A DNA stretch of 35,125 nt, from positions 1 to 35,125 of the IMG/VR virus record IMGVR_UViG_3300021961_000305. One strand, written 5' to 3'. Numbering within the stretch: position 1 is the stretch's first letter; each line of letters opens with the position of its first letter. A program made the position numbers and the translations under genes. Below the pieces are notes generated by a model. It searched no databases, was not told where the DNA came from, and worked only from the letters and a program-made list of their open reading frames with translations. Of the stretch, positions 3,677 to 34,668 are shown piece after piece. The stretch comes from a virus.

Positions 3677-5251
3677 ATGGCTAACTTAACTACAACGCCA
3701 AGTAAAGCCGTAACAAAGTCTGTGGGTGATCCAAATCCAGCATATGAATCTTTACGTGGGTTGTGGGAACGGTCAAGAGCTATCCTTAACGGGGAGACTC
3801 ATGCCAAAGCCTATGATGATGTTATTGATACATACAGCTTTACTAACTTGTTACTGCCTTTCAGTCCAACGATGACTCAGGCGCAATATAACTTTTACCG
3901 TAGTGAGGCAGAGTTACCAGGACTAGTTCAGCAGTATGCTAAGATCCTTCTTGGCGGTATTCTTAGGAAGCCTCCTTCTTTGGCACTTGGCAATTCAATT
4001 CCAGCTGATGCTCAAGCATGGTTAACAAACAATTTTACTGCTAGTAATGGTTCTATGTTGAGTTTCCTCGATGAAGCGCTTTGGGAAGAGTTACAAACCT
4101 CACGTTGCTGGGTGATTGTAGATTATCCTGAGATCGATTCTAACGCTGATTTAACACCAGAACAGAAGGCAGAATTAAACCCTTACTGTGTAATCGTTAA
4201 AGCAGAAAACGTCATTAACTGGCAACAGTCATCAATAAAAGGTAGCTCTCATCAGAAGCTGTCTAGGTTCACTATTAGATTTTTTATTGAGAGCTTTTCC
4301 AACAATCAATTTCATCCAGACTATGTAGATACTGTGATGGATTATTACCTTGATGAGTCAGGACTCCTTGTAATTGATACTTATCAGAAGTCTGACACTA
4401 ATGAAACTATCAATGTAGTCAATGGTGAACTAACCAAGAAATACCAAACAGAGAATGCTCAACAAAACTGGTCAAAGATTAAAACTGTTTATCCTTTGAT
4501 GAACGGTGAAAGAATGGACTTCATTCCTGCCTATCCATTGAATGGTCAAGTTCAACCTGTCGAACCTATTTTACAACCATTAGTTAACAGAGAGATTTCT
4601 TTATACAATAAAGTAAGTCGTAGAAACCATTTACTTTATGGTGCAGCTACCTATACTCCTGTAGTTATGTCTGATATGACTGACGAAGAGTTTGAGGCTA
4701 TTGTTAACGCTGGTCTAGGCAGTTGGATTAAGCTAAGAGCAGGAGACGAGATCAAAGCCCTAGAGACACCTACAAAGAGTCTTGAGGATATGGAAAAGGC
4801 TATTGAGGCTACCATCAATGATCTATCTAAAATGGGTATCCGAATGCTTGCTCCTGAGGGTTCAGGAGACAGTGGTGTAGCACTCGAGATTCGAAATGCT
4901 AGCCAGACAGCCCAATTAGGTATGTTGAATACTAAGATTAGTTCCACAATGGAACAGATCATTACTACTATGCTTCGCTGGAAGTATGGTATCGATATAA
5001 CAGAAGAAGATGTTGAATTTGAGTTATCCGCAGACTTTAACCCAGTACCTGTTGGTGCTGACTGGATGCGACTAGTCACTGAATGGTATCAAAATGGTAT
5101 TATTCCACGTAGTACATTTATTAAGATTGCTAAGAGCAATGATGTATTACCTAATGACTATAATGACGAAGAGGCTGTTCAGGAAATCCAGACAGACCCT
5201 CTAATCGATCTTCAATCAACTCAAATTGATTCATCAATCACAGGACAGTAA
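3677..5251 (+). CDS. Portal protein, DUF4055 family
   Basis: Portal proteins form the ring at one capsid vertex through which DNA is packaged and ejected, and which nucleates head assembly. This 524-residue protein shows the DUF4055 hallmark segment YRSEAELPGLVQQYAKILLGG followed by RKPP (about 72-98). Later come a QPVEPILQPLVNREISLY helix and a long central helix region with EGSGDSGVALEIRNASQTAQLG. The C-terminus is acidic and lacks obvious structure. Position (after terminase, before the minor head protein and scaffold) agrees with a portal. Length is in the usual range. DUF4055 is assigned from remembered sequence pattern. Confidence 0.88.
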   Translation: MANLTTTPSKAVTKSVGDPNPAYESLRGLWERSRAILNGETHAKAYDDVIDTYSFTNLLLPFSPTMTQAQYNFYRSEAELPGLVQQYAKILLGGILRKPPSLALGNSIPADAQAWLTNNFTASNGSMLSFLDEALWEELQTSRCWVIVDYPEIDSNADLTPEQKAELNPYCVIVKAENVINWQQSSIKGSSHQKLSRFTIRFFIESFSNNQFHPDYVDTVMDYYLDESGLLVIDTYQKSDTNETINVVNGELTKKYQTENAQQNWSKIKTVYPLMNGERMDFIPAYPLNGQVQPVEPILQPLVNREISLYNKVSRRNHLLYGAATYTPVVMSDMTDEEFEAIVNAGLGSWIKLRAGDEIKALETPTKSLEDMEKAIEATINDLSKMGIRMLAPEGSGDSGVALEIRNASQTAQLGMLNTKISSTMEQIITTMLRWKYGIDITEEDVEFELSADFNPVPVGADWMRLVTEWYQNGIIPRSTFIKIAKSNDVLPNDYNDEEAVQEIQTDPLIDLQSTQIDSSITGQ

Positions 5252-5311: not shown

Positions 5312-8300
5312 ATGACACTTAATGATGAGATCTATGATCGTATTGTACAGCATTTGGCTGATACACGATTATATGAATTAGAAACACAAACACTACTAGG
5401 AAGAGGTATTCGTAGACACAAGAAACGTTTACGAGATCTCTTAGTAAAGGACATTAAAGCTAACCTCCGTCCTGAAGTAACAAGGATGACGAGAGAGTTA
5501 AGAGCAACAACAGAAAATAGCCTAACAGATTATGCGGGAGCAAGCATAAACTTCCATACCAATAATCTCGAAAAGAGCACAGGACGTTTCTTTAAAGTAA
5601 CTAAGCCTAAAGCTTCCGATCTGTTAGTGTCTATCATTGGCCCTAATATTGAAACATCACGATCAATCAAACAACACTTTGATTCTATTGGTGAAGGTGA
5701 ATTAGTTCGAATTCAGAACAAGATTCTTTCAGGACTAGCTAATGGTAAGACAAATAAAATAATTATTCAAGAAGTACTCGAGACTACTTCGATTACTGAA
5801 CGTCAGGCTAAAGCCTTAGTTCGAACAGGTATTACAAGAACACAATCAGTAGTATTGAATCGAGTAATGGAAGAGAACAAAGACATTATTGCTGGATATC
5901 GGTTTACTGCGGTACTAGACTCTCGTACATCACCTACTTGTGCTCATCATGATGGTGAGTTCTATAAGATAGATGATAAACGATATCAGCCTCCATTACA
6001 TTGGAACTGTCGTAGTTCACTAGTACCCGTATTGAAAGCTAAATCAGAAATACTAAGAACAGAGTCGAATAGAGTCCGTCCAAGGAATCTTGAAAAGGTA
6101 GACCCAAAGGTTCTGGATGGAGTTCCTCCTAAGAAGGAGAACTACAACGAATGGCTGAAGCGTCAGCCGATGGATGTTAAGCTAAAACAGCTAGGATCAG
6201 AAGAAAAGGTAGCTCTATTTGATGCAGGTAACTTACCTGTTAAAGAGTTTATTACGCCTAAGGGCGGATCTATTAGTGTAGCTGTTCTTCGTAAGCTAGA
6301 CAATGCTAGGACTTCTATATTCCCTACTAGACAGTCAGTATTAACTGAGTCTCAGGATGCAGCCTTTGCTGTAGCCGCTAGTCGTCCATACGATATTCTC
6401 CGATCACCTCAAGTACAGAACCAACTAAGGGCTATGTATATTAGTGATGCAGAGTCTATGAATCAAGCAATGTCTTTAACTGACTTCCGTGGTACTACCC
6501 TCTTAGGTAAACGTACATCACGCATCAGAGCAAATAATGAGTTTGATGAACGCAATACATCATTCGATCCATTTACTGGTGAAGTAAAGACTACCATGAT
6601 GTATGATCCTGACTTTCAAGTATATCAGGAACGACTAGACTTTCTACGTAACTCAAAACTATTAGACAAAGATCAAAAACAATTTATTGAGGACTTTGCA
6701 GAATCTCTTGAGGATAAAATATCGGTTAATCAACAGTCTGTAGTAGTAGAGAATCTAAGGGTTCTCTTTGAACGATATGAGAACTCTACGCCTAAGGTGC
6801 CATGGGAAAACTTCATGAATGTTGCTAGAGCAGAGTCTCAGTATTCTGTTGTTAACGTATCTCGTATCCTTGATAGACGTTCAAGAGAACGTGCTGAAGC
6901 GTTTGCTACTTATGGTCGTGCAGGAGAACCCGCCAAGGTTCAAATATTCGGGCGATACTATTCATTCGATGATATCTCTAAGAACCTATTAGACAACCAA
7001 CGCTATACAAGTAATTGGAAGACAGTATATGGTCGTTCACTTGCTCGATCTGTATACTATCGTGGTAGAGCACCACTAAAGGCTTATTTTATTAAGCCTG
7101 ATAGAACTAAGCCACAGACAATTAAAGACAGAATCATAAAAGCTCTTGAAGAGTCAGTTCCAGGATTTAAGACTTTCCTAAAGTTAACAGATGGTAAACC
7201 TAGAGATTCTCTTATTACAGAATTCCTTCGTGATAAACGAGAAGCATACCGGCGTATTGTTGATCTAGAATTCCTATTTGGAAGACAACGACAATCATAT
7301 TTAGACCAGTTAGTTGAGGATGCTACTGGAGATAAAGAAGCTATTGATGTACTATCAGGAATCATGGAATTGATCGCTGATGGACAATCTACGGATTATG
7401 ATACCCTTGCAATTAATATTGGTAAGAACTTAAGGGACAACTGGAAACCCAATTTTCCTTTCTTTAAACCTACACTGAAAGACTATCATGAAGATGGTAG
7501 TAAGATACTTCAAGGACTGCGTGATCAAGGATTGATTCGTGTTCTGCCCAGGGGTAAAAATAGACGTTCTGTTATCGATCTTGAAACAGGACGACCAAGT
7601 GGACCGTGGAAAAATACTATGTCTAGAGAAGTTGTTATCCTAGACCGTAACATGCGAGAACTACAATCTCGTAATAGACAAATATTAGTCTCCCAGAATA
7701 TTGGAGTAGTTAATCCTCGAGACCGATTATATATTCGTGCAGGAGAAAAGACTTATTATGACGCTAGAGGTAAGAACACAGGAGTCTCAATTATCACTCG
7801 AAGAGCTAGTGGTAACTATGACAAAGATTTAATTGATAGAGACTTCGCTAAGATGTTGAATCATACTATGGATGCTCAGTACGAGGTTGACAATGAATTC
7901 TCTGGATTCATGGATGAGCTAGTACGCTTTAGAGACCCTAGGGGTAATGTTAAAAAGTATGATGATCTAAATGACTTTAGACGATTGATCTTAAAACGAG
8001 GTGATCAAGGCTATGCATTTATGCAAACAGTTAAATGGCATAGAGATCGAGGAGCACCATTTAGAGTTATTGCTCAGATTGATGGACGAGGACGAGTATA
8101 CTATCAAGGATACTTAACACCAACAGGTGGTGAAGTTGCTCGACCATTTATCAATAGTAACAGAGCTATTAGCATGAATCGTGAGTCTCTCCGAGAGTTA
8201 ATGACTCAAACAGGTGCATTGATTGGACCTACTACAGAGGCATTGACGGTTGATGGTCGTATGGAGATCTTTTTAAGAAATGAAAAAGCCCTTAGAGAGA

Positions 8301-9724
8301 TTGGTGAGCTTGTGTTAAGCACAACTCAACGAGATCGGCGTATTAGAGAGTTCCTTGAACATCCTCTAATTAGAGCAACCGAGGCTGAAGAAATACCAAA
8401 GCTAACTAGATTGGCAGTTGAATACACTCGTATTCATCGTTGGACTAATGGAAATCTAACCGATGAAGCCCGTCTAGCACAATATAAAACAAAACTAATG
8501 ATTGAGAATGATGCCTCCTCCTCTGGAGCACAGATTATTGGGTTATCTACAAAAGATCGCTCAATCTCAGTCAACTCTAATGTACTACCAACAGCACAAA
8601 AGAATCGACTATACGACTTAGTAGCAATGGATACAGTGTCTGATCCAGACTTTCAAAAGATCACTGCGTTAGCTAATGCAGATATCCAGTGGACTGATCT
8701 TCAGAAAGCAGCTAAAGCTCAGAATATGGTTTCATTCTATGGTGCTGGTAAAGCAACTCAAGCAGCTAATATTGAGGCTAAGTTTGCTAGTGTATTAGAA
8801 GACAAAGGTTATACGGTTATCACAAGAGAAGAGTTACGAGAAGTGACTAATCTCATTGATAAGAAAATAAAAGATGCAGACTACCTAGGCGCAGAGAATG
8901 TATCTTTTGGATTAAAACAATTAAAGCGTGAGCTAAACGAAGTAATTGAAGGTGAAGCCCCTGTGGGGAACGCACTACTTCAAGCTGCTCGTGATGTTCA
9001 TCCTGATGTTGAGGTGTTTGTTGATAAAATATCGAATGTAAGATCTGGGCTAATTGGGCCTGCTGAATTTAAGGCAGTGTCAGAAATTATGTCTCGGAAG
9101 CTTGCAGAGCGAGCACCTGTTACTGGCAAATTCGTACAGTTCTGGAATCAAGCAGCCAAAGCTTTCGTTGAAGAAACACAGAAGGTTGATATACCCTGGG
9201 TGACTTTTGATGGAAAGCGATTGTACCAGAGATACCGTCCAAAGGTTCAAACCTCAATTGAATTCCGTGATCCACAAACCGGAAGGATGGTAAGAAATAT
9301 TTACGAAGCCAAAGCAGAAGACGCTACACTACTAGGTAAAGCTAGTATTAGCAGAGCGAGGATTGGTCTTGGTGTTAATGGCAACCATATGAATGATGCA
9401 TCGATTGTTCGACAGTTTCATTTATGGGGTGCTAACAGTGGAATACCAACAGCAACAATCCATGACGCTTTCTTCACTAATATCGGAGACGCAATGAGGG
9501 CAAAGAGTGCTCTCAGAACTATTTACGCAGATGCCCTTGAAGGTAATACAATTGAAAAAACCTTAAAGGCTATGCGGGATGAAGGGCTATCAAGGAGTTC
9601 TTATGAAAGACTTCTTGCGCTGGCAAAAGAAGAAGGGTTGATTGACCCTCCAAATGCAATTACAAGACAAGACATTCTAGCCCCTATCCCTAGAGGTATG
9701 GATTGGTATGGAATTGGACCTTAA
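5312..9724 (+). CDS. MuF minor head domain fused to single-subunit RNA polymerase
   Basis: A 1,470-residue protein joining two functions. Residues about 130-245 match the MuF/SPP1 gp7 head morphogenesis domain: ALVRTGITRTQ, then DSRTSPTCAHHDGEFY (203-218) and PPLHWNCRS (227-235). Such proteins bind the portal inside the head. Residues about 890-1400 carry T7-type RNA polymerase signatures. D924-GRG-R928 is the DxxGR motif. DASSSGAQ at 1067-1074 is motif A (T7 D537). K1135...M1139...YG1144 is motif B (T7 K631, M635, Y639, G640). HDAF at 1384-1387 is motif C (T7 H811-D812), preceded by NHMNDAS as in T7 NFVHSQDGS. Residues about 260-890 match nothing I recognise and may include the polymerase N-terminal domain. 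GAAAGGGAACC precedes the ATG, and the scaffold gene follows. I infer a capsid-packaged, possibly injected polymerase comparable to N4 virion RNAP. The T7 R627 position is Gln (1131), with Lys at 1132. Confidence 0.9.
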   Translation: MTLNDEIYDRIVQHLADTRLYELETQTLLGRGIRRHKKRLRDLLVKDIKANLRPEVTRMTRELRATTENSLTDYAGASINFHTNNLEKSTGRFFKVTKPKASDLLVSIIGPNIETSRSIKQHFDSIGEGELVRIQNKILSGLANGKTNKIIIQEVLETTSITERQAKALVRTGITRTQSVVLNRVMEENKDIIAGYRFTAVLDSRTSPTCAHHDGEFYKIDDKRYQPPLHWNCRSSLVPVLKAKSEILRTESNRVRPRNLEKVDPKVLDGVPPKKENYNEWLKRQPMDVKLKQLGSEEKVALFDAGNLPVKEFITPKGGSISVAVLRKLDNARTSIFPTRQSVLTESQDAAFAVAASRPYDILRSPQVQNQLRAMYISDAESMNQAMSLTDFRGTTLLGKRTSRIRANNEFDERNTSFDPFTGEVKTTMMYDPDFQVYQERLDFLRNSKLLDKDQKQFIEDFAESLEDKISVNQQSVVVENLRVLFERYENSTPKVPWENFMNVARAESQYSVVNVSRILDRRSRERAEAFATYGRAGEPAKVQIFGRYYSFDDISKNLLDNQRYTSNWKTVYGRSLARSVYYRGRAPLKAYFIKPDRTKPQTIKDRIIKALEESVPGFKTFLKLTDGKPRDSLITEFLRDKREAYRRIVDLEFLFGRQRQSYLDQLVEDATGDKEAIDVLSGIMELIADGQSTDYDTLAINIGKNLRDNWKPNFPFFKPTLKDYHEDGSKILQGLRDQGLIRVLPRGKNRRSVIDLETGRPSGPWKNTMSREVVILDRNMRELQSRNRQILVSQNIGVVNPRDRLYIRAGEKTYYDARGKNTGVSIITRRASGNYDKDLIDRDFAKMLNHTMDAQYEVDNEFSGFMDELVRFRDPRGNVKKYDDLNDFRRLILKRGDQGYAFMQTVKWHRDRGAPFRVIAQIDGRGRVYYQGYLTPTGGEVARPFINSNRAISMNRESLRELMTQTGALIGPTTEALTVDGRMEIFLRNEKALREIGELVLSTTQRDRRIREFLEHPLIRATEAEEIPKLTRLAVEYTRIHRWTNGNLTDEARLAQYKTKLMIENDASSSGAQIIGLSTKDRSISVNSNVLPTAQKNRLYDLVAMDTVSDPDFQKITALANADIQWTDLQKAAKAQNMVSFYGAGKATQAANIEAKFASVLEDKGYTVITREELREVTNLIDKKIKDADYLGAENVSFGLKQLKRELNEVIEGEAPVGNALLQAARDVHPDVEVFVDKISNVRSGLIGPAEFKAVSEIMSRKLAERAPVTGKFVQFWNQAAKAFVEETQKVDIPWVTFDGKRLYQRYRPKVQTSIEFRDPQTGRMVRNIYEAKAEDATLLGKASISRARIGLGVNGNHMNDASIVRQFHLWGANSGIPTATIHDAFFTNIGDAMRAKSALRTIYADALEGNTIEKTLKAMRDEGLSRSSYERLLALAKEEGLIDPPNAITRQDILAPIPRGMDWYGIGP

Positions 9725-9770: not shown

Positions 9771-10469
9771 ATGAGAGTAGATAAGTTCGGAGTTAAAGAG
9801 TTTCTTGATGATGGTGTAACAGCCAATCCAGAGTTTCAAGCAGATCAGGTAGATAGTAATGCTGGCAGTGCCCCTAGCAATAAGGACACTGAAGATATTA
9901 TTAACCGCTTGGTTGAAGAGCGACTTTCTAAAATTAAATCGAGTCTTGATAAGGCATATAAAGAGCGTGACGATGCTGTCCGTGAACGAGTACGCCTAGA
10001 AGATGAGAAGAAACAACAACACCTAAAGTCTCTAGAGGCTGAGGGTAAACACAAGGAAGTGGCTGAAATGAAAGTAGCTGAGTTAAGTGAAAAGCTAGCT
10101 CTAGCTGAACAAAAGGTTACACAATTGACAAGAGATAGTGCTGTTCGTAACGCACTAACAGGTCTCGACTTCCGCAATGAACGATCAAGCGAAATGGCTT
10201 ATCGTGATATTCTCGAACAACTGACGCAAGATCCCGAAACTGGAAGCTGGATTCACAAGTCTGGCGTAGGTATTAAAGATTTTGTACAACAGTATGTTAA
10301 GAATGAGGATAATTCTTTCCTATTCAAACCTAAAAATAATTCTGGCGGTGGCTCCGGTTCAATGAATGGAACACCAAAACTAGATCCAAACAAGAAGCTT
10401 TCCGAAATGTCCCAGGCTGAAGTTCTACAACTTGCAGCAGCTGGTAAACTAGGGAGTTTCTCATTCTAA
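9771..10469 (+). CDS. Capsid scaffolding protein
   Basis: A 232-residue, highly charged protein with a long predicted coiled coil (about 45-125, rich in E, K, R and A, with ERLSKIKSSLDKAYKERDD). A mixed region follows, then a glycine-serine linker (NNSGGGSGSMNG at about 192-203) and a C-terminal helix (KLSEMSQAEVLQLAAAG), the type of end by which scaffolds bind the capsid protein. Location immediately before the major capsid gene and lack of a protease gene suggest that it chaperones capsid assembly and then leaves the head. Assignment rests on composition and position rather than on a diagnostic motif. An AAGGA ribosome site lies upstream. Confidence 0.78.
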   Translation: MRVDKFGVKEFLDDGVTANPEFQADQVDSNAGSAPSNKDTEDIINRLVEERLSKIKSSLDKAYKERDDAVRERVRLEDEKKQQHLKSLEAEGKHKEVAEMKVAELSEKLALAEQKVTQLTRDSAVRNALTGLDFRNERSSEMAYRDILEQLTQDPETGSWIHKSGVGIKDFVQQYVKNEDNSFLFKPKNNSGGGSGSMNGTPKLDPNKKLSEMSQAEVLQLAAAGKLGSFSF

Positions 10470-10488
10470 CTCTTAGGAGAAATTTTAA

Positions 10489-11580
10489 ATGATTGATCAT
10501 ACACTATTTAAGAACGTAGCTATTGCTATCAGTGCATATGCTGATGAGGCTTACACTACTGCTAAACGTGTTAACACTTCTGGCATCGTAGGTACTGATG
10601 CCCGTATTCAACCCAATGGCGAGAGCTTTATTGGTCAAATGCGTTGGTACAAACCACTAGCTGCTAACATTAACGTAGCTAGCCTAACCTCTTCTGCTGA
10701 TGGTACTTACACCGACATCTCTACCGAGATCGCTGACTACATCAAGTCTGTCCGTACCTTCGGTTCACAACAAGTTAACCTACAACAAGTAATTAGCCAG
10801 CAAGATGGTCTAGCCAAGATTGCTCGTGACTTTGCCCAAGTTCGTGGCGATGACGAGAATGATGCTGTTATGTCAGTAATGAAGGGTGTCGCTGCTTACG
10901 AAGTAGGTCGTGGTGCTGGTATCGTTGCTTATGATACTAATGCTGATGGTGCCTCTGTTGGTAACTTCGTAGACATCAACGCTCTAAGCGTATTCGGTGC
11001 TGCTGCTACTGGCACTTCTGATGCTCGTAAACTATTCGACTCTACCGCTATTGGTGCTGCCCGTGGCCAACGTCTATTCCAAGCTATTGGTATGGCATTC
11101 AAGGATCATGAGCCTGACTACATGTACATGGTTACTTCTCCAGAAGTTCTAGCCGAACTACGTGCTGCTAATCTAGTAGACACTACCCCAATTATGGATG
11201 GCAACCTAGAGTTCCAAACTGTATTCGGTGGTAAGTTCCGTCTAGTTCTAACTCGCGCTTCACAAGGCAACCTATCCGCTAGCGCTAACGTTAACGACCA
11301 GTCTACCAAGACTACTCTAATCGTTAAACCAGGCTCTATTGCCTTCTCTGGAATTGCTGTACCAACCCCTGTTGAAGTTGATCGCAATGCTGCTTCTTAT
11401 ACTGGTGGTGGTTCAACCAATATCTGGTATCGTTATGGCTTCGTTGCTCATCCTATGGGCTATGATTGGGCTGGTTCAACTTCTGCTTTCGCTACCAACG
11501 CTGCCTTTGCTACCGCTGGTTCATGGAGCCGTAAGATGGATGCTCTAAACCTAGGCATTCTACCTATCCTTCACGCTTAA
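10489..11580 (+). CDS. Major capsid protein
   Basis: A 363-residue protein at the major capsid position between scaffold and connector genes, with a strong TAGGAG ribosome site. It has features common to HK97-fold capsids: a helix-rich middle with the motif DFAQVRGDDENDAVMSVMKG (about 114-133), an EPDYMYMVTSPEVLAELR segment that resembles the capsid spine and A-domain, and a C-terminal region ending in a conserved-looking NLGILPILHA. Codon use is strikingly unlike most neighbours: 19 of 20 leucines use CTA, and many other codons end in C, as expected for the most highly expressed gene of the window. The fold assignment is inference; identity as capsid protein rests on gene order, length and codon bias. 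Confidence 0.85.
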   Translation: MIDHTLFKNVAIAISAYADEAYTTAKRVNTSGIVGTDARIQPNGESFIGQMRWYKPLAANINVASLTSSADGTYTDISTEIADYIKSVRTFGSQQVNLQQVISQQDGLAKIARDFAQVRGDDENDAVMSVMKGVAAYEVGRGAGIVAYDTNADGASVGNFVDINALSVFGAAATGTSDARKLFDSTAIGAARGQRLFQAIGMAFKDHEPDYMYMVTSPEVLAELRAANLVDTTPIMDGNLEFQTVFGGKFRLVLTRASQGNLSASANVNDQSTKTTLIVKPGSIAFSGIAVPTPVEVDRNAASYTGGGSTNIWYRYGFVAHPMGYDWAGSTSAFATNAAFATAGSWSRKMDALNLGILPILHA

Positions 11581-11597
11581 TCCATTAGGAGGAACTG

Positions 11598-12095
11598 ATG
11601 GCACTAGTATTAGGTACAAATTCCTATGTGACATTGGAACAAGCTGATGCTTACTTTGACACACGCCTCGATGCGGGGGCGTGGGTAAATGCAGATAGCG
11701 ATGACCAAGAGTCAGCATTAGTGACCGCAACTCAGATTCTTGATAATTATCATTATATTGGTGTTGCTGTCAGTTCCGCACAAAGTCTTGCATGGCCTCG
11801 TAAAAATGCAGCTTACTATGAACCCAAATTGGGTACTCAATTAGGAGTAGATGATTCTACTTACCCTAATCGGTTAAAGTTTGCCACATACGAGCTTGCT
11901 CTGCATTTGCTTACTAACGAAAATCTTCTAGATAATAAAACACAAACATTCGAAAGAATTCGTGTTGGTTCAATTGAGATCGAAGACTCTAATAATGATG
12001 TTACTAGAACTCCAGTTATGCCAAATCGAGTAAAAACATTCATCAGTCCTTTGTTGATTGATGGAGGCACTCGTTCATGGTGGAGGGCAAACTAA
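11598..12095 (+). CDS. Head-tail adaptor, DnaT-like connector family
   Basis: A 165-residue protein starting with the family signature NSYVTLEQADAYFDTRLDAG, then SALVTATQILDNYHYIG and SLAWPRK at about 75-81. This pattern is frequently annotated as 'putative DnaT-like ssDNA binding protein' in phage genomes, but its constant place right after the major capsid gene argues for a portal-adaptor ring protein like HK97 gp6 or SPP1 gp15. I favour the structural role. A GGAGG ribosome site lies 7 bases before the ATG, and the stop directly abuts the next ATG. Confidence 0.75.
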   Translation: MALVLGTNSYVTLEQADAYFDTRLDAGAWVNADSDDQESALVTATQILDNYHYIGVAVSSAQSLAWPRKNAAYYEPKLGTQLGVDDSTYPNRLKFATYELALHLLTNENLLDNKTQTFERIRVGSIEIEDSNNDVTRTPVMPNRVKTFISPLLIDGGTRSWWRAN

Positions 12096-12440
12096 ATGTC
12101 ATTAAGGAACAAGATCTCAAAAGCAGTTGATGCTGTATTTGTAAAAATCGGAGATCTTGCTGTCGATGCTACATTCACTAATAAAACTGTAACAGACTTT
12201 AATTTCTCTTCTGGAGAAGTTGTTTCTGCTACTGCTACATTAGTTAAAAAAGTTGTAGTTGAAGAAAAGATCAATCGCTCTCAAGAACAGCCCACTGTTG
12301 TTACTACATTAATGACAAAATCAACAGGAGAAGATTTTTCTGTGTATACCACTGTAACAGTAAACTCAGTAGTATATAATATTATTAGTATTGCAGATGA
12401 TGGTTTCTTAGTAAACGCTACTATTACTAGGAGTGTATAA
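12096..12440 (+). CDS. Probable head-closure (stopper) protein
   Basis: A 114-residue, mainly beta protein with alternating V, T and S strands (VVSATATLVKKVVVEE and YTTVTVNSVVYNIISI). It has a helical N-terminus and no membrane segment. It sits between adaptor and tail terminator genes, where the stopper that closes the filled head (SPP1 gp16 or HK97 gp7-type) is normally encoded, and beta-barrel character fits. No diagnostic motif is visible, so the function is from position only. The stop overlaps the next start by one base (TAATG). Confidence 0.5.
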   Translation: MSLRNKISKAVDAVFVKIGDLAVDATFTNKTVTDFNFSSGEVVSATATLVKKVVVEEKINRSQEQPTVVTTLMTKSTGEDFSVYTTVTVNSVVYNIISIADDGFLVNATITRSV

Positions 12441-12841
12441 TGTTTGATTCAATTCGATCTGATATATACTCTGTATTTGCTTCACCCTCTTGGGTAGCAA
12501 CTGGTATTAAGGCATATCCAGGAAATTATCAGGGTACAATTTCTAATAAGAATGAATTTGCTCGCATCTCAATTATTCCAGGAAGAAGTCAATTTGACTC
12601 TCATAATCTTACTAAGACATTAACTGGAATTCTTACACTATCAGTTTTCGTAAAAACTGGTGCTGGAGATAAACGATTATTTGAGATTGCAGATTTATTA
12701 GATGATATTTTCGAAGGTAAAACTTTGCAAAATGGAACACAATTCAGTTCAAGTGCATTAAATGTAATTGGACTTGATCGTGATGATCCTGCGCTATATC
12801 GTGGAGATTATACGATTACCTTTAACAAATTTGGAGAATAA
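12440..12841 (+). CDS. Probable tail terminator protein
   Basis: A 133-residue protein with an N-terminal helix (MFDSIRSDIYSVF), a central beta region (FARISIIPGRSQFDS, then TGILTLSVFVKTGAGDKRLFEIADLLDDIF) and a C-terminal strand RGDYTITFNKFGE. This is the layout of lambda gpU and SPP1 gp17 type terminators, which cap the tail tube and join it to the head. The gene directly precedes the tail tube gene, which supports the call. It starts at the one-base overlap with the previous stop. Confidence 0.6.
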   Translation: MFDSIRSDIYSVFASPSWVATGIKAYPGNYQGTISNKNEFARISIIPGRSQFDSHNLTKTLTGILTLSVFVKTGAGDKRLFEIADLLDDIFEGKTLQNGTQFSSSALNVIGLDRDDPALYRGDYTITFNKFGE

Positions 12842-12846
12842 CACAA

Positions 12847-13398
12847 ATGGCCCATATTACTTCAATTGGAGCTGGCATTTATTCTGCTCTAGCTGTAAAC
12901 ACTACTGCTATCACAGATTTAACTACTGTTGATACGCTAAGTGAGCTAGTTGCAAAATTTAGTTCAGCTGGCAACTTCTCAGAGATTAAGAATGTTCGTG
13001 AGTTCCCACAGATTGGTACTCCCGCTAATATTGTAAACGTACCTGTCTATGGTCAAAAGACCTCTAGCCAGATTCAAGGTCAGGCTGATGCCCCAACTCT
13101 TGAAATGACTATTAACTATGTTCCTTCAGAGTGGGCTTCTGGCTCAACTCTAGGTGCCCTAGTTGGTGATGGTAATGTTTATGCATTCCAGTTTTCACTA
13201 TTGAATGCTAAACCAGCTGGTCTTAACACCACTGCAGGTGGCACTGGTCTAGGTTCTGTAGCTAACTCTAACTTCTACTTTGTTGGTAAAGTTGAAGCCC
13301 TACTAGTTAGCCCACAGTTGACTGATGCTAACCAAGCAACACTAACACTATCAGTACTAGGCGACTTCTTTGGTCCCTCTACTGTAGCTGCTGCTTAA
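12847..13398 (+). CDS. Major tail tube protein
   Basis: A 183-residue protein with SPEWASGS-like tube features: a segment PVYGQKTSSQIQGQADAPTL followed by EMTINYVPSEWASGS (about 74-108), then alternating strands to a C-terminal FFGPSTVAAA. The QGQADAP-type segment followed by 'TINYVP' is common in tail tube proteins of siphoviruses. It should polymerise around the tape measure protein into the tail tube. Leucine is mostly CTA as in the capsid gene, consistent with high expression. A transcription terminator follows the stop within 10 bases, as is usual after a highly expressed structural gene. Confidence 0.8.
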   Translation: MAHITSIGAGIYSALAVNTTAITDLTTVDTLSELVAKFSSAGNFSEIKNVREFPQIGTPANIVNVPVYGQKTSSQIQGQADAPTLEMTINYVPSEWASGSTLGALVGDGNVYAFQFSLLNAKPAGLNTTAGGTGLGSVANSNFYFVGKVEALLVSPQLTDANQATLTLSVLGDFFGPSTVAAA

Positions 13399-13404
13399 TA
13401 GTTA

Positions 13405-13439
13405 GGTAAAAGGGGAATCTTCGGATTCCTCTTTTTACC
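13405..13439 (+). terminator. Rho-independent terminator after tail tube gene
   Basis: A GC-rich hairpin with a stable TTCG loop: arm AGGGGAATC pairs with GATTCCTCT, and flanking GGT-AAA pairs with TTT-ACC, with the T-run on the 3' side. It lies 6 bases after the tail tube stop, so it should end or reduce transcripts from the head and tube genes. Confidence 0.85.
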
Positions 13440-13479
13440 AGGGGACGCTTAAGGATAGCTCTCCGGGGAGATATATAAT
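13437..13479 (+). promoter_or_regulatory. Candidate phage promoter, copy 1 (shared box plus TATAAT)
   Basis: Just after the terminator lies ACCAGGGGACGCTTAAGGA (13437-13455), then GCTCTCC, and a perfect TATAAT at 13474-13479. The same box with two changes and a TATAAT at nearly the same distance is found at 26811-26854. No TTGACA-like -35 is present, so the box may bind an activator, or may be a promoter for the phage's own RNA polymerase. CTCCGGGGAG (13461-13470) forms a small inverted repeat in this copy only. Genes from 13501 onward would be transcribed. Confidence 0.55.
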
Positions 13480-13500
13480 AGTATTAATAAGGTATTATAA

Positions 13501-13740
13501 ATGATGGAAGATAAACCACCTTTTAGTAAGTCATTCGTTATGAAAACTACATTTCGTCATATGAGACGTAGTGTAGATATTAGTATTCGAAAATCATTTG
13601 AACGATTTCAAGACTTTGATAAGGATAGTGATGTAGGCAAAGATATCATGGAAACGCTATCAGTACTTCATACAGTTCGTAAAGTACTTGATGATTTCCA
13701 AGAAAATAATAAACATCTGTTTGTAGATAATAAGGAATAA
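13501..13740 (+). CDS. Hypothetical 79-residue protein before tail chaperones
   Basis: A small, charged protein (MEDKPPFSKSFVMKTTFRHM at the start, acidic C-terminus FVDNKE) predicted as helical throughout, with no membrane segment and no motif I recognise. Two adjacent ATG codons (13501 and 13504) could serve as start. A clear ribosome site is not obvious, although AAGG occurs at 13489-13492. It is the first gene after the candidate promoter and is followed after 2 bases by the tail chaperone gene, so a tail-assembly role is possible, but nothing in the sequence proves it. Confidence 0.6.
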   Translation: MMEDKPPFSKSFVMKTTFRHMRRSVDISIRKSFERFQDFDKDSDVGKDIMETLSVLHTVRKVLDDFQENNKHLFVDNKE

Positions 13741-13742
13741 AA

Positions 13743-14036
13743 ATGAAACATCTAGTTGGAAAGAAACTACCAAAGAAAATTAAATTTATGGGTGAAGAGG
13801 TAACTATTAAAAAGTTATCAATCTCTGAAGTACTTGAAATTCAAAAAGAATACAAAGAAGCTGAAGGTTCACAAGATATTGGTATTTTGAAAACTATTAT
13901 TCGGCTAGCTGTTGAAGGAGCCTCTGAATTATCTGATGAAGATATTGATTCATTCCCATTAGATGAATTAGCTAATCTATCTAATGAAATTATTAAATAT
14001 TCAGGAATGGATAAAGGTACAGCAGTGGGAAACTAA
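13743..14036 (+). CDS. Tail assembly chaperone, lambda G-like
   Basis: A 97-residue acidic helical protein (KIKFMGEEVTIKKLSISEV, then a long amphipathic helix and LSDEDIDSFPLDELANLSNEI). In gene order it takes the place of lambda gpG, which coats the tape measure protein until the tube assembles. It ends just after GGGAAAC at 14027-14033, read as G-GGA-AAC, with TAA directly after it. That heptamer is a canonical -1 slippery sequence, comparable to GGGAAAG in lambda G/GT, so a fraction of ribosomes should continue in the -1 frame to give the longer product. Confidence 0.85.
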   Translation: MKHLVGKKLPKKIKFMGEEVTIKKLSISEVLEIQKEYKEAEGSQDIGILKTIIRLAVEGASELSDEDIDSFPLDELANLSNEIIKYSGMDKGTAVGN

Positions 14037-14368
14037 GTGAAGAAGAATTCTTTATTTATGAAATAGCAGCGACTCTTGGTAAAACTATTTATGAAATAGA
14101 AGAGTCAATGACATATGAAGAATTTCGTGGATGGGTTGAATATTTTAATAGACGTCCATACCAATGGAGAGATGATAATAGAACTGCAATGCTATTACAA
14201 GCACAAGGTGTCAAAAATGCTGAAAGATTATTTGAATCTTTACAGAAATTGAAACAGAATGCACCTGAAAGAGATATTTCAGAAACACTTAAGACCTCAG
14301 GTTTACTAAACCGATTGAAAGAAGCTGCAAAGAATAACAACATTGATTGGGAGGTTACAGATGCTTAA
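13743..14368 (+). CDS. Tail assembly chaperone -1 frameshift product, lambda GT-like
   Basis: Slippage by -1 at GGGAAAC (join 13743..14033 with 14033..14368) gives a predicted 208-residue protein: 97 residues of the G-like part plus 111 from the second frame. The second frame is open from the slippery site through EEEFFIYEIAATLGKTIYE and EESMTYEEFRGWVEYF to the TAA at 14366. An ATG at 14108 lies inside this region, but it has no good ribosome site and would lose the conserved-looking upstream residues. An AAAGG Shine-Dalgarno-like sequence 9 bases before the heptamer could stimulate slippage, as in dnaX. I see no strong downstream hairpin. In lambda both G and GT are needed to recruit tube subunits. 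Confidence 0.85.
14027..14033 (+). other. -1 programmed frameshift site GGGAAAC
   Basis: The heptamer has the X-XXY-YYZ form in the correct frame (G GGA AAC), is followed at once by TAA, and lies in the 3' end of the tail chaperone gene, where such sites occur in most siphoviruses. The -1 frame is open both upstream far enough and downstream for 111 codons. Confidence 0.87.
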
Positions 14369-14723
14369 ATTTGAATTAGTCGGATTTAAAGAAGTATCTA
14401 GAAAACTTAATCAATCAATTGAAAAAGAAAAACAAAAATTCTTTAATCCTGAGATGCAAAGATTAAAGAAACTTCTTGTTAAGGCTACGCCTATTGATAC
14501 GGGATATGCTCGTAGTCGATGGGTCTATAACAAAGAAGATTTATTAAAAATATCATTTAGTTTTAAGAATAGATTTTTCATATCTTTTACAGATATTACC
14601 TATACTTTTACTAATGATGCACCATATATTCAATACTTGAATCAAGGCTCTTCAAAACAAGCGCCAGCATTCTTTATTGAGAAAACTCTTTTATCTCAGG
14701 GTTATATCCCTAAAAAATTATAA
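14361..14723 (+). CDS. HK97 gp10-like tail/neck component
   Basis: A 120-residue protein. I choose ATG 14361 because GGGAGG lies 6 bases before it; a longer TTG-start version from 14343 has no such site. It contains the HK97 gp10 family core, KATPIDTGYARSRWV (about 43-57), then FTNDAPYIQYLNQGSSKQAP (about 84-103), in which the 'TP.DTG..R..W' and 'N...Y...l..G.S.Q.P' patterns are diagnostic. Members act in head-tail joining or tail completion and usually lie before the tail terminator gene. Here the gene is placed after the tail chaperones, which is an unusual but not unknown order. It overlaps the frameshift product's end by 8 bases and is followed by a terminator. Confidence 0.8.
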   Translation: MLKFELVGFKEVSRKLNQSIEKEKQKFFNPEMQRLKKLLVKATPIDTGYARSRWVYNKEDLLKISFSFKNRFFISFTDITYTFTNDAPYIQYLNQGSSKQAPAFFIEKTLLSQGYIPKKL

Positions 14724-14727
14724 TCTA

Positions 14728-14766
14728 AGCCCTTGATGCTCAAACTGCATTGAGGGCTATTTTTTT
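14728..14766 (+). terminator. Rho-independent terminator before tape measure gene
   Basis: Arm AGCCCTTGATGC pairs with GCATTGAGGGCT (two G-T pairs) around a 7-base loop, followed by ATTTTTTT. It is 5 bases after the previous stop and 12 bases before the tape measure ATG. Since no promoter is evident between them, it probably attenuates rather than fully stops transcription into the tape measure gene. Confidence 0.85.
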
Positions 14767-14778
14767 AAGGAGAATCAT

Positions 14779-17700
14779 ATGTCTGAATCCGAATTTGGTT
14801 TTAAGATATCATCAGATTCAAGACAGGCACAGCAAGATTTAGCTAAATTAAATGCTTCCGTAAATAAAATCGCAGATACTACTAAGACTGCAACAGATAC
14901 ATTAGCTAGTTTAGCTAAACAAGTTGCTGTTGTCTTTGGATCAATTGCTGCATTTACATCAATCAATAAAGCCTCTGATGCTCTTATAAATTTAGAAAAT
15001 AGAATTGCGCTTGTAACTGGAAGAACTAGAGATCTAGTAAATATCCAAAAAGAGCTAGTTGCATTATCATTTAGAACTAGAAGTTCAACAAGTGATGCTA
15101 CTGAAGTATTTGTACGTTTTGCGAAAGCATTACAAAATCAAGGTAAGTCTTATAAAGATATATTAACTGCTACAGAGGCGGTACAGAAGTCAATTGCTAT
15201 TTCAGGATCTAGTGCTGATTCAGCTTCAGCTGCTATTATACAGTTAGGTCAGGGTTTAGCTAGTGGTGTTTTACGTGGTGAAGAATTAAACTCCGTATTA
15301 GAGCAAGCTCCACGACTAGCACAAGCAATTGCAGATAGCTTAAAGTTAACTGTTGGTGAATTAAGAGCATTTGCTGCTGATGGTAAATTGACAGCAGAGA
15401 AAGTATTTAAAGCTTTAATTCAACAGTCAGGTAAATTAAATGATGAGTTTAAATTACTTAACCCCACATTTGAACAAGCAACAAAACAGTTAGGTCAATC
15501 AATACAACGAGTAATTGGTGAATTTGCTAAAGCAACAGGATCTTCATCAAAATTAAGTGTATTTATACTTAAGATAGCTGATAGTCTAAATTCATTTTCC
15601 GAAGAAGTCGGATCTATTGTTGACTCAACGTTATTTAATCTTGAATTCTTTTATCAAGATACAAAGAAAATATTTTATGGAATAAGAGGTTTATTTGAAG
15701 ATGCTCTAAGTGGTATCTCTATTTATATTAAACCTATTAATCTTGGACAATTCTTACCCAGCCTTGAATCAATTAAAATTAAAGTACAAGCTTTTGGTGC
15801 TTTTATCAAAGGTGTATTTTATGATATATGGGATGCTGTTGTAGGTAATTCTTATTGGCCAGATACTATCAATGGCGTTATTGAATGGGCTAAGAAACTA
15901 CTTCCAAATATTAGAGATCAATTTGATCGTTTTAAAATTTATATTCTAGATATATTCCAAACAATTAAAACAAAAGTATCTGACTTTACTATAAAAGTTG
16001 GGTTAGAGATAGCTAATGCTAAAGATATTGGATTATTAAACTATTTAGCTAATATTGTAAATGAACTTACTAGTAGATTAAAGGTACTCGGATCTACTTT
16101 AGCTAAATTACCAATAATCTCTAATATATTAGATTTTGATTATAGTGGTTTTAGTCTTAGTATTAAAAATGCCGTTATCGCAGCATTTTCATCAATTAAA
16201 ACTCCAGATCTCAAACCATTTGCAGATGTATTATTATTAACTATTGGTGCTGTTTTTAGTAGTAAAATTAGAAATCTAACTTTTGGTGCAATTGCTATTA
16301 AACTTGCTGTTGATTTCCAAGATGTTATTGGATCAGAAAATACTAAGAAATTTGCATATGAACTTGGTCAAAGTATTGGTCGTATAATTAAATCAGCAAT
16401 ATCAAGTGAAGGTGGAGATGGTATTTCTGGTCTTTTAAAGAAAATTACAGCAATAATTAGCGAATTTGGTCAAGGATTACTTCAAGGTGTGGGATTAACT
16501 AGTGAAACAAAGTCAGGTGGGCTAATTGCAGGTTTACTTTTTGGTACTAGCTTTACAGCATTATTAACTGGTAATTTAACTAAATTATCAAAATTTATAT
16601 TTGATCATATTATTAAACCACTTGGTACAAGTAAAGAAAAAATTACTGAAGTAACAGATGCTGCTGGAAATATTAGTAAAATAACAACTAAAGATGTTCC
16701 ATTCTTAGAGAAATTAATATTTGGTGAGAAAGGGATGGCATCTGGTTCTTCCTCTATAACTGAGACTATTCAGACTATTGAGAAAAATACTATACGTGCA
16801 TTTATTGGAACAGGTACAACAATCTTATCTGCAATCTTTGGTAAATGGATATCTGATACAATAATTAAAACATTTGGAATTGATGATACTTTTACACAAA
16901 TTGGTATAACAATGACTACATCATTAGTTGCTGGATTTCTACTTACTTCCTGGGCAACTAAATTAACTACAGCAATTGAGGCCGCCTTTGTTTCTGCTGG
17001 ATTACTAAGCTCTATTTTTGGGGCAGGTGGCGCTATTGCTGGAGCGCTAGCAGGTGGCTTTCTTGGTGAGAAAGCAGCTGACTTCTTAGGCATTGAAGAT
17101 CCAATGACTAGACTCTTCTTCAAGGTTGGAGGAATAGCTGCTGGCGCATTTATTGGTGGTTTTATTGCGATTAAAGTAGGTGCTGCTATTAGTGCAGCGA
17201 TATTACTAGGTATGAAAGCTTTAGCACTAGAGATTGGTGCAGCAGTTTCTATTGCTGTCGGTGGTGCTATTGCTGGTACTGCTGGTGGCGTTGGGCTACT
17301 TGCAACAATTAAAACAGCATTTGCAGCTGTAACTGCAGCAATTGTTACATTCTTTAGTATACCAGCTGTTCTTGCAGCATTAGGTATTACTGCCGGATTA
17401 GGTCTGCTCTACTATATTTTCTTTGGTTCTGACGAAGATAGTGTGGGTGGTAAGATTCGTGACTGGTCTAAAAGCATCTGGGAAGATCTCAAATCCGGAT
17501 GGGATTCTTTAGTACAAAGAATTAAAAATACCAAGAATCCATTTACATTAACTCCTTCAGATAATTTATTATTTCCACAAGGAACACCATCTCGAGACGT
17601 TAACCCACAATTACGAAGGGCTTCTGGTGGTGATATTAGAGGTCCAGGCACAGGTACTTCTGATAGTATTATGGCCATGCTCTCTAATGGAGAATATGTA

Positions 17701-19554
17701 GTAAATGCAGTATCTACAAAGAAATATCGAAGCTTAATTGAAGCTATTAATACTGATCGTTTACCACGTTTTGTGTCTGGTGGATTTATTAATGCTGTAA
17801 GAGAAAATGAAGGGTATTCTGATCGAGTTTATACAGATACTCAAGGATACCTAACTGTCGGTGTTGGTCACAAACTTACACCAGATGAAATTTCTAGATT
17901 CAATCTTAAAAATTACATAGGTGCAGCTGACTCTATCTTAAGAAAGGCTAATATTGTACCTTATACAAAGGAACAAATTAATAGCATATTTAATAGAGAT
18001 GTTGCTATTGCAATCAATAGTGCGGCTAACGTAGTTCGTAATTTTGGTGGAAACTTTGATCAACTACCTGATAAGGTAAGAGATGTAATTGCTGATATGA
18101 GTTTCCAATTAGGAGAATCAGGATTATCTAGATTTACATCTACTATTCCTGCTCTAATCTCTGGAAAATATCAAGAAGCTATTGCTGGGCTACAGAATAG
18201 TTTAAACTTTAAACAAACACCTGAACGAGTATTAAAACGTATAAATTGGATAGGCGATGCTATTGCATCAGCTACGCCTAGCTATAAAGATCTTTTTGAT
18301 CCTACTCTTGCCACTCGAGAATTACAGGAACCTTCTGAAAGTTTATTTGACAAATTAAAGCGAAGGTTTGAAGAATTTAGAGGAACTGTTTCAGGAGCAC
18401 CTGGAAAAGATCAAATACCTGCATTACTAAGTGATGGTGAATTCGTTGTAAATGCAGAAGATACTAAGAAGAATTTTGGGTTATTAAATTGGATTAATAG
18501 TGGATTACCTGCTTTTCAATATGGCTCAAGTAGATTAGAAACCCCTGCTTTAAATCAGTTAGTTGATCCTAGAAATTATGATCTTGGTTCATTATCTAGT
18601 TCTGAAATGCGTAGTATTGAAAGATACTTAAAAGTCATTGCAGAAGCTAATAAACGTATTGAAGTTGGAGGACTCACCAAATCTGATTTAGCAAGAAATA
18701 CAGACATAGCTAATAAATCTTATGATTCATTATATAAGATTCTTAATCGAGTAAGTTTATTAGACACTAATTTAACCAAAGGTTCTTATCGTATTACTGC
18801 TGAAGGATTAGCTGAAGGTCAAAAGTTATCTAATGCGTTGATTGAAGAAACTAAATCAGGTTTCGCTGCTTTCCTTAAAGGTCAACAATCTTTTTCAGAT
18901 CTTAGAGATTCCCTAATAAATAGTTTCACAAGTAAAGTCATTGATGCCTTCTCTACTGGATTTGTAAATAGCTTAGTTGAATCTTTTGGATTTGATCGTA
19001 TATTTAAAGATATATTTGGTGGTATTTTTGATCTTGGTGGCTTTTTTGGTGGAAAGAGAACAGGAGCTACACCTGCAGAAGCATTATGGGTACAAATTGT
19101 TGGTGCTCTAGGTGATTCTACAGGTACTACTGGTGGTGGTCTCCTTGGAAGCTTAAGTAATTTTGGATCTTCAATTGGTCAAGGTTTATCTAATTTTGGT
19201 AATAGTATAGCTAATGAGTTTGGATACTTTTTTAGTGATACTGGTGGTTTTGAGTTATTAGGTAGTCTCGGATTTGCCGAAGGCGGTATTGTCCCAGGTA
19301 TAAAAGGCCAAGCAGTACCTATCACAGCACATGCAGGAGAGATCATTCTAAATGAAGCTCAACAAGCTCGTGTTGCTGCTGCAATGCAAGCAGGTTCAGC
19401 AAATCAATCTGTAGTAAACCTATCAATCACAGGTGATATCTCTCGTCAGACTCGTTCAGAGATCATGCAGATGCTACCACAGATTACTGCTGGTGTTAAT
19501 GCAAATAATCGTGAAAATAATTACAAAGGTAATGGTACCACAACAAGGAGATAA
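14779..19554 (+). CDS. Tape measure protein with internal GH24 lysozyme domain
   Basis: A 1,591-residue protein that sets tail length and fills the tube. Residues about 70-250 match the tape measure N-terminal domain (VFVRFAKALQNQGKSY and LASGVLRGEELNSVLEQAPR). Hydrophobic Gly/Ala-rich stretches occupy about 715-885 and could form membrane-spanning segments during DNA entry. Residues about 1000-1170 are a T4-type lysozyme with E1011, D1020 and T1026 in the Glu-8aa-Asp-5aa-Thr pattern (ENEGYSDRVYTDTQGYLTVG). Near-copies of a tape-measure motif flank it: LSNGEYVVNA (968-977) and LSDGEFVVNA (1217-1226). A weaker third copy, HAGEIILNEA, lies near 1518. At about 0.15 nm per residue the tail would be at most about 240 nm. 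The lysozyme would cut the wall locally at infection. A ribosome site AAGGAG precedes the ATG. Confidence 0.93.
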   Translation: MSESEFGFKISSDSRQAQQDLAKLNASVNKIADTTKTATDTLASLAKQVAVVFGSIAAFTSINKASDALINLENRIALVTGRTRDLVNIQKELVALSFRTRSSTSDATEVFVRFAKALQNQGKSYKDILTATEAVQKSIAISGSSADSASAAIIQLGQGLASGVLRGEELNSVLEQAPRLAQAIADSLKLTVGELRAFAADGKLTAEKVFKALIQQSGKLNDEFKLLNPTFEQATKQLGQSIQRVIGEFAKATGSSSKLSVFILKIADSLNSFSEEVGSIVDSTLFNLEFFYQDTKKIFYGIRGLFEDALSGISIYIKPINLGQFLPSLESIKIKVQAFGAFIKGVFYDIWDAVVGNSYWPDTINGVIEWAKKLLPNIRDQFDRFKIYILDIFQTIKTKVSDFTIKVGLEIANAKDIGLLNYLANIVNELTSRLKVLGSTLAKLPIISNILDFDYSGFSLSIKNAVIAAFSSIKTPDLKPFADVLLLTIGAVFSSKIRNLTFGAIAIKLAVDFQDVIGSENTKKFAYELGQSIGRIIKSAISSEGGDGISGLLKKITAIISEFGQGLLQGVGLTSETKSGGLIAGLLFGTSFTALLTGNLTKLSKFIFDHIIKPLGTSKEKITEVTDAAGNISKITTKDVPFLEKLIFGEKGMASGSSSITETIQTIEKNTIRAFIGTGTTILSAIFGKWISDTIIKTFGIDDTFTQIGITMTTSLVAGFLLTSWATKLTTAIEAAFVSAGLLSSIFGAGGAIAGALAGGFLGEKAADFLGIEDPMTRLFFKVGGIAAGAFIGGFIAIKVGAAISAAILLGMKALALEIGAAVSIAVGGAIAGTAGGVGLLATIKTAFAAVTAAIVTFFSIPAVLAALGITAGLGLLYYIFFGSDEDSVGGKIRDWSKSIWEDLKSGWDSLVQRIKNTKNPFTLTPSDNLLFPQGTPSRDVNPQLRRASGGDIRGPGTGTSDSIMAMLSNGEYVVNAVSTKKYRSLIEAINTDRLPRFVSGGFINAVRENEGYSDRVYTDTQGYLTVGVGHKLTPDEISRFNLKNYIGAADSILRKANIVPYTKEQINSIFNRDVAIAINSAANVVRNFGGNFDQLPDKVRDVIADMSFQLGESGLSRFTSTIPALISGKYQEAIAGLQNSLNFKQTPERVLKRINWIGDAIASATPSYKDLFDPTLATRELQEPSESLFDKLKRRFEEFRGTVSGAPGKDQIPALLSDGEFVVNAEDTKKNFGLLNWINSGLPAFQYGSSRLETPALNQLVDPRNYDLGSLSSSEMRSIERYLKVIAEANKRIEVGGLTKSDLARNTDIANKSYDSLYKILNRVSLLDTNLTKGSYRITAEGLAEGQKLSNALIEETKSGFAAFLKGQQSFSDLRDSLINSFTSKVIDAFSTGFVNSLVESFGFDRIFKDIFGGIFDLGGFFGGKRTGATPAEALWVQIVGALGDSTGTTGGGLLGSLSNFGSSIGQGLSNFGNSIANEFGYFFSDTGGFELLGSLGFAEGGIVPGIKGQAVPITAHAGEIILNEAQQARVAAAMQAGSANQSVVNLSITGDISRQTRSEIMQMLPQITAGVNANNRENNYKGNGTTTRR

Positions 19555-26807: not shown

Positions 26808-26810
26808 CCT

Positions 26811-26854
26811 ACCAGGGGACCTTTAAGGAGGCTTCCAAATTCTATATCTATAAT
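26811..26854 (+). promoter_or_regulatory. Candidate phage promoter, copy 2 (shared box plus TATAAT)
   Basis: ACCAGGGGACCTTTAAGGA at 26811-26829 repeats the box at 13437 with two differences, followed by GCTTCC and a perfect TATAAT at 26849-26854. Gap between box and hexamer is 19 bases here and 18 in copy 1. It is intergenic, 33 bases before the start of the next gene, and would serve the side tail fibre transcription unit. No good -35 box is seen. Both copies being intergenic and upstream of tail gene sets supports a regulatory role. Confidence 0.55.
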
Positions 26855-34199: not shown

Positions 34200-34200
34200 A

Positions 34201-34416
34201 ATGGAAACCATTGAAATCACCGCAGAAGAAATCGCACGCCATCTGAGTGCCGCTATGGACTCGGTAAACCTAATCAACGCTGGCAAGCCAGAAGAGATGT
34301 CCGATGAAGATTGGGCAGATACAGTTGCTCGGAATAAGGAGCATCTGAACATCATGCTTTCAAAGGACTTCTGGACTAACGAAGATTTGACTCCGCTGAG
34401 TCAAGCCGCTGCCTGA
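34201..34416 (+). CDS. Small acidic protein after tail fibre (unknown)
   Basis: A 71-residue acidic helical protein beginning METIEITAEEIARHLSAAMD, with MSDEDWADTVARNKEHLNIM in the middle. It starts 1 base after the fibre stop and has the same GC-richer composition as the fibre end, so the two probably moved together. Small proteins directly downstream of S74-ended fibres are common in aquatic phage genomes. Their function is unknown to me; a fibre-assembly helper is a reasonable guess. A hairpin terminator overlaps its stop codon. Confidence 0.6.
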   Translation: METIEITAEEIARHLSAAMDSVNLINAGKPEEMSDEDWADTVARNKEHLNIMLSKDFWTNEDLTPLSQAAA

Positions 34417-34432
34417 CGGTTTCAGGTTTTTT
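34412..34432 (+). terminator. Rho-independent terminator overlapping stop codon
   Basis: A 5-base-pair hairpin, CCTGA pairing with TCAGG around a 5-base loop, followed by TTTTTT. The 5' arm includes the TGA stop of the 71-residue gene. The stem is short, so termination may be partial. Confidence 0.65.
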
Positions 34433-34446
34433 ATAGGAGAACTGAG

Positions 34447-34668
34447 ATGGGAAAAAATGAAAAAACCCCTATCAGCATTGACGGCGTAGAGTATCAACTG
34501 GAAGACATGACTTCAGAACAGCAAATTTTGGTTAATCATGTAGCCGACTTGGATCGAAAACTGTCTTCGGCTAGATTCAATGTCGATCAGCTACAAGTGG
34601 GCAGGGATGCCTTCTTTGCCATGCTAAAAACTGAACTTGAAAATAAGCCTGAAATTGAAAAATTATAA
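34447..34668 (+). CDS. Small conserved phage protein, DUF6447-like
   Basis: A 73-residue helical protein: ISIDGVEYQLEDMTSEQQIL, then a helix VADLDRKLSSARFNVDQLQV and GRDAFFAMLKTEL. The pattern 'I.Gk.Y..edLt.eQ..lv.hv.dLd.kl....f.ldQl.vgr..F...L' recurs in small proteins next to fibre genes of cyanophages and other aquatic phages (I recall it as DUF6447). The function is unknown, but the heptad pattern suggests oligomerisation. An AGGAGA ribosome site lies about 8 bases before the ATG. Confidence 0.7.
   Translation: MGKNEKTPISIDGVEYQLEDMTSEQQILVNHVADLDRKLSSARFNVDQLQVGRDAFFAMLKTELENKPEIEKL

Follow-up and report, generated by a model that had tools for sequence, protein, structure and literature searches.

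The window analysed here (G000), a 35,125-base virus record from IMG/VR, carries at 5312..9724 a gene that couples an N-terminal MuF head protein to a putative C-terminal T7-class RNA polymerase in a single product of 1,470 amino acids, which we propose to be a virion RNA polymerase. Three parts can be distinguished: a MuF/SPP1 gp7-like part (residues 1-334, Pfam core 134-237; 5312..6313), a connector (residues ~335-554; 6314..6973) and a single-subunit polymerase (residues ~555-1470; 6974..9721), the last assigned by VIA-align, hhalign and its invariant catalytic residues. Immediately upstream lies the gene for the portal protein (3677..5251; phrog_145, E 3.6e-56), on which the MuF part is proposed to dock, and downstream follow a head scaffolding protein (9771..10469; phrog_206, E 2.2e-12) and a major head protein (10489..11580; phrog_247, E 1.2e-24), all on the forward strand. 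The placement between portal and scaffold given in a preliminary description of this DNA is thus borne out by the profile matches.

The MuF/gp7 motif named in that description is present at residues 202-236 (LDSRTSPTC...PPLHWNCRSS), and both profile collections agree with it: Phage_Mu_F (PF04233) matches residues 134-237 (E 1.2e-15, 58.6 bits against a curated cut-off of 29.6) and the head morphogenesis family phrog_241 matches residues 50-332 (E 9.5e-54). With a domain score above the cut-off and a portal gene (3677-5251) as its neighbour, the protein belongs to the MuF family, and residues 1-334 correspond to the portion common to the MuF proteins of pelagiphages. A predicted model of the N-terminal part was mostly helical and returned only generic helix bundles from the PDB, with no informative fold match. 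Pelagibacter phage Kolga encodes a 633-residue MuF protein (L161 2501-4402) with similarity confined to residues 1-334, which appears from its sequence to be the same head part with another C-terminal cargo. The connector is conserved in the family and without known domain; a protease or other domain was sought, and no informative Pfam or PHROG match was found in residues 335-554 past the MuF tail.

In the C-terminal part, the ordered DxxGR, DxSxSGxQ, KxxxMxxxYG and HD signatures and the NHMNDAS stretch all lie where they had been reported (DGRGR 924-928; DASSSGAQ 1067-1074; K1135xxxM1139xxxY1143G1144; NHMNDAS 1358-1364; HD 1384-1385), so that all five T7-class motifs (DxxGR, A, B, NxxHxxD and C) are present in order. 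Profile searches assigned this half to RNA_pol in Pfam (E 8.5e-8, 31.9 bits against a curated cut-off of 22) and to the RNA polymerase family phrog_414 (E 1.3e-21). An AlphaFold2 model of residues 341-1470, built with 38 sequences (predicted local distance difference test score 76.9, predicted template modelling score 0.70), has the right-hand T7 fold across the whole enzyme. Its best structural match was T7 RNA polymerase (8dh5_M; VIA-align Z 30.6, 523 residues, root mean square deviation 4.0) over model positions 215-1127, which are protein residues 555-1467, ahead of mitochondrial RNA polymerases (Z 20-27), the N4 mini-virion RNA polymerase (mini-vRNAP, Z 17.5) and N4 RNAPII (Z 14.6); Foldseek returned E 3.9e-17 for the same model. 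In the alignment with T7, DxxGR, motif A, NxxHxxD and motif C line up, while motif B is absent from that alignment. Using hhalign, we obtained E 4.5e-5 over 424 columns against a profile of T7 and the second phage polymerase described below (RNAP2), and no match (E 0.36) against the N4 vRNAP profile. The C-terminal part is therefore predicted to be a T7-class RNA polymerase, nearer to T7 than to N4 vRNAP. The T7 half of the earlier designation 'T7/N4-type' stands, whereas kinship with N4 vRNAP was rejected on the negative profile comparison. Nor does an N4-like core of ~1,220 residues follow the MuF domain, as had been suggested, since the polymerase fold starts near residue 555 and is T7-sized (~915 residues).

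The fusion is not an artefact of assembly. The open reading frame (ORF) has no internal stop over all 1,470 codons, and the same gene occurs with 100 % identity on an independent contig (L002). A profile scan of IMG/VR yielded 260 relatives of the fusion, 80 of which were retained; all 67 copies that are complete within their contig hold both parts in a single uninterrupted ORF of 1,451-1,584 residues. An assembly chimera or a frameshift, and with it the stop between the two parts that would have undone the preliminary description, is ruled out by these two observations. In an alignment of 83 sequences, one row of which ends before motif C, the catalytic residues D924, R928, D1067, S1069, G1072, Q1074, K1135, M1139, Y1143, G1144, H1384 and D1385 are invariant (82-83 sequences per residue), as are C210, H230, C233, R234 and S235 wherever the MuF part is present. 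These catalytic residues are kept at ~50 % overall identity, and few stretches are as well conserved as the motif blocks. Full-length homologues are also found in two cultured phages of Ruegeria pomeroyi, DSS3_VP1 (protein QGH74596) and DSS3_PM1 (50 % identity), and, as gp47-gp49, in EBPR siphovirus 1 (31 % identity); the database records label all three as minor head or head proteins and leave the polymerase half unnamed. In one scan of genome contigs, no relative was found in bacterial genomes or prophages. The fusion is carried by a large, widespread family of aquatic tailed phages.

In two distant relatives, L005 and EBPR siphovirus 1 (L005 13396-13662, within a gene at 10001-15214; L008 23902-24128), the motif B codons of the polymerase are split by a group I intron carrying an HNH gene. 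Such introns usually occupy conserved sites of functional genes, and we count their presence at motif B in favour of a functional polymerase gene. In DSS3_VP1 and DSS3_PM1, the portal and fusion genes are separated by a tRNA-Asn gene (L006 21063-21138; L009 19822-19897). In a phylogenetic tree, the MuF polymerases group together, with a very long branch leading to their clade. Descent from a duplication of RNAP2 was considered and set aside, as this branch is too long for the tree to resolve the origin of the clade within the superfamily.

The records of DSS3_VP1 and DSS3_PM1 annotate a separate RNA polymerase, RNAP2, which matches the same PHROG RNA polymerase family (E 2.6e-132). Besides these two phages, RNAP2 is present in all eight of the longer environmental fusion records that reach the early region (8/8). 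These genomes thus hold two T7-class enzymes, one fused to a head protein and one free. The RNAP2 gene of G002 is apparently split by an intervening ORF (555, 182 and 205 amino acids).

Comparison of intergenic sequence across DSS3_VP1, DSS3_PM1 and five environmental genomes revealed two promoter-like motifs. Motif 1 (AGGKGACGYTAAAGAG) resembles the promoter of phage SP6, with whose record it was compared. The window contains two sites, both on the forward strand: TTTACCAGGGGACGCTTAAGGATAGCTC at 13434..13461, in the gap 3′ of the major tail protein gene (17.0 bits with the position weight matrix), which is placed relative to the tail genes like the DSS3_VP1 site at 29392, and the intergenic CCTACCAGGGGACCTTTAAGGAGGCTTC at 26808..26835 (16.1 bits). 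The matrix gave no match in a shuffle, and the two occurrences compare with 0.05 expected, for a pattern that was itself derived from these two sites. DSS3_VP1 and DSS3_PM1 have 16 sites each, G002 three, G006 seven, G008 six, G020 four and G005 five, nearly confined to the coding strand (one weak opposite-strand match, in G006). A site starts no more than a few bp 3′ of the RNAP2 gene in G005, G006, G008 and G020, and further sites are spread over the middle and late regions. From motif 2 through the end of RNAP2, no motif 1 site was found in DSS3_VP1, G005, G006, G008 or G020, except for one inside the RNAP2 gene of G008.

Motif 2 (AAAAAGTGAGAAAANNNANGYATCTATAATGA) is 37 bp long (58 bits over 37 positions) and is confined to the early region, where it precedes RNAP2 wherever both are seen. 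It is present in every examined record that covers the early region, namely DSS3_VP1 (35788 and 36235), DSS3_PM1, G002, G005, G006, G008, G020 and five further loci; one weak match in G002 (22566, 19.5 bits) is probably due to chance. Many motif 2 sites (L152, L154, L080, G006, G008) are directly followed by a short inverted repeat such as GATATA...TATATC; the early transcript would then carry a hairpin at its 5′ end. In a set of 50,697 phage records, significant matches to motif 2 were confined to DSS3_VP1 and DSS3_PM1. When 2.9 million IMG/VR contigs were scanned for the exact pattern, the motif turned up in 86 stretches. When 46 of the longer records were tested, 25 held the fusion polymerase and 45 held RNAP2, the fusion or both. 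The remaining 21 of the 46 contain no phrog_241 MuF gene at all, as fragments would show, so no record pairs motif 2 with such a MuF gene lacking the polymerase. This linkage is the same type of argument as that made for the early motif of phage P23-45 (PMC10770324).

Taken together, we consider it likely that the fusion is a packaged and injected virion polymerase that reads the early genes, including RNAP2, and that RNAP2 drives the rest; that the phage is a long-tailed one of the DSS3_VP1 (Naomviridae) kind is part of this best explanation. During head assembly, the MuF part would bind the portal and bring a few polymerase copies into the procapsid, as inferred from SPP1 gp7, and so small a tag could explain the portal loading of a ~165-kDa protein. 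At infection, the fusion would travel through the tail together with the DNA, presumably in an unfolded state (as has been suggested for N4), and would transcribe the early operon from a dedicated promoter, for which motif 2 (AAAAAGTGAGAAAANNNANGYATCTATAATGA) is the candidate. This operon includes the RNAP2 gene, whose product would in turn transcribe the middle and late genes from motif 1 (AGGKGACGYTAAAGAG). The preliminary description had already proposed the head tag and the injected polymerase, an idea now independently supported by the relatives covering the early region, since these also encode a free polymerase and have an early promoter-like motif distinct from motif 1.

Three points weigh against this interpretation. 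As the N4 vRNAP profile comparison was negative, relatedness to an enzyme with a demonstrated place in the virion cannot be invoked for packaging; the window evidently is a fragment without the early region, and motif 2 and RNAP2 are seen in its relatives only; and motif 2 includes TATAAT, which means that host RNA polymerase could read it. The last point sustains the main rival, in which the fusion is packaged with another role (e.g. DNA pulling, or use of other promoters) and the early genes are transcribed from motif 2 by the host sigma70 enzyme. However, no -35 hexamer is found at spacings of 14-18 (mean match at most 1.74 of 6), the spacer region is conserved, and the motif is not an extended -10. 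Sigma70 consensus matches in the early region are few, and motif 2 is tied to the fusion across IMG/VR without a counter-example. The host-promoter explanation is weakened by these features, and we regard it as unlikely.

Less probable still is that the polymerase is made late and, whether cleaved from MuF or remaining with it, works in the infected cell on late transcription without being injected. Such a role would suit a gene that sits in the late structural operon, but RNAP2, with what appears to be its own promoter set, already covers the late stage, and there would be no evident purpose in keeping polymerase and MuF joined in every complete relative. That the polymerase part is a decayed passenger serving purely as a structural ejection protein, as might be suspected from the great length of its branch compared with other RNA polymerases, is hardly credible given catalytic residues invariant in 82-83 sequences, motif blocks among the best conserved and the good match of the predicted model to the T7 fold.

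Further genes around the fusion encode a terminase, a PhoH-like protein, a lysozyme, the major head protein, an adaptor, the major tail protein, a tape measure and a central tail fibre, an arrangement that reads as the late module of a long-tailed phage. The tape measure is encoded on its own (14779-19554), and the matches listed for it include no polymerase family; within its product, residues ~999-1162 resemble a lysozyme (phrog_7 endolysin, phrog_2083 internal virion lysozyme). A tail fibre-like protein of 2,289 residues with many Ala/Ser/Asn repeats is encoded at 27330-34199, followed at 34199-35125 by further repeat-rich sequence that ends at the contig edge.

Several known systems share elements of the arrangement described here. 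Binding to the portal brings SPP1 gp7, in low copy number, into the procapsid (PMC6316719), and MuF proteins carry enzymatic effectors for which delivery to the host is proposed (PMC5512222). The fusion is like SPP1 gp7, Mu F and these MuF-toxin or MuF-effector proteins in having MuF beside the portal and a C-terminal enzyme. In the text searched, the MuF cargoes named are toxins and effectors (RelA/SpoT, PBECR, PRTase and zeta kinase), with no RNA polymerase among them (PMC6316719, PMC5512222). Phage N4 ejects its polymerase, for which unfolding during ejection has been proposed (PMC12633501), and its gp50 is similar in bearing the single-subunit fold on a large protein of the late operon, with a second polymerase in the early region and two promoter classes. 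However, gp50 has ~3,500 residues, no MuF and the polymerase in its middle, and belongs to a short-tailed phage, whereas the polymerase here is C-terminal in 1,470 residues, its profile does not match that of N4 (E 0.36), its fold is nearer to T7, and motif 2 forms no obvious N4-type hairpin promoter. According to a survey of polyvalent proteins, N4-like virion polymerases are confined to N4-like phages. In P23-45, a two-barrel polymerase is fused to the tape measure, and relatives without the fused polymerase are also without the early motif (PMC10770324). That phage likewise has a long tail, a polymerase fused to a structural protein, a free second polymerase of pre-early type and an AT-rich early motif linked to the fusion (PMC10770324), but its enzyme is of the two-barrel, cellular type and sits on a tail protein, unlike the right-hand T7-class enzyme on a head protein described here. 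The T7 and SP6 polymerases (Autographiviridae) have the same fold and catalytic motifs, and motif 1 resembles the SP6 promoter, but they are made in the cell and are not fused to virion proteins. Given what is known of SPP1, the MuF effectors, N4 and P23-45, a polymerase that is packed and injected is an economical reading of the fusion.

That phages package polymerases fused to other parts of the virion is already known; what is new here is the tether to a MuF head protein. The coupling seems to be unreported, as no account of a MuF-RNA polymerase fusion was found in the literature searched, a search that covered works other than the original DSS3_VP1/PM1 paper (Curr Biol 2021). On balance, and somewhat less firmly than for injection itself, we favour the view that these phages took an independent route to a packaged polymerase, with a portal-tethered T7-class enzyme, injection through a long tail, a cascade of two polymerases and two promoters, and a start without host RNA polymerase on a template containing deoxyuridine (dU). 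DSS3_VP1 and DSS3_PM1 belong to the Naomviridae and have dU-DNA. Relatives of the DSS3_VP1 dCTP deaminase (38-40 % identity) occur in G002, G005, G006, G008 and G020, suggesting that dU-DNA may be wider in the group; the DSS3_VP1-type dTMP phosphatase family was not detected in these five records, and dU-DNA is therefore not established for the clade of the window.

Phages of the PBS2 type, which also have dU-DNA, bring multisubunit RNA polymerases. If our interpretation is correct, a dU-DNA phage would, unlike these, start transcription with a single-subunit enzyme. T7-class polymerases, whose known members are produced inside the cell, would also have been turned into injected virion parts, and MuF proteins would carry gene-expression machinery besides toxins. 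DSS3_VP1 on Ruegeria pomeroyi, for which both promoter classes are predicted, offers a cultured system in which this can be tested.

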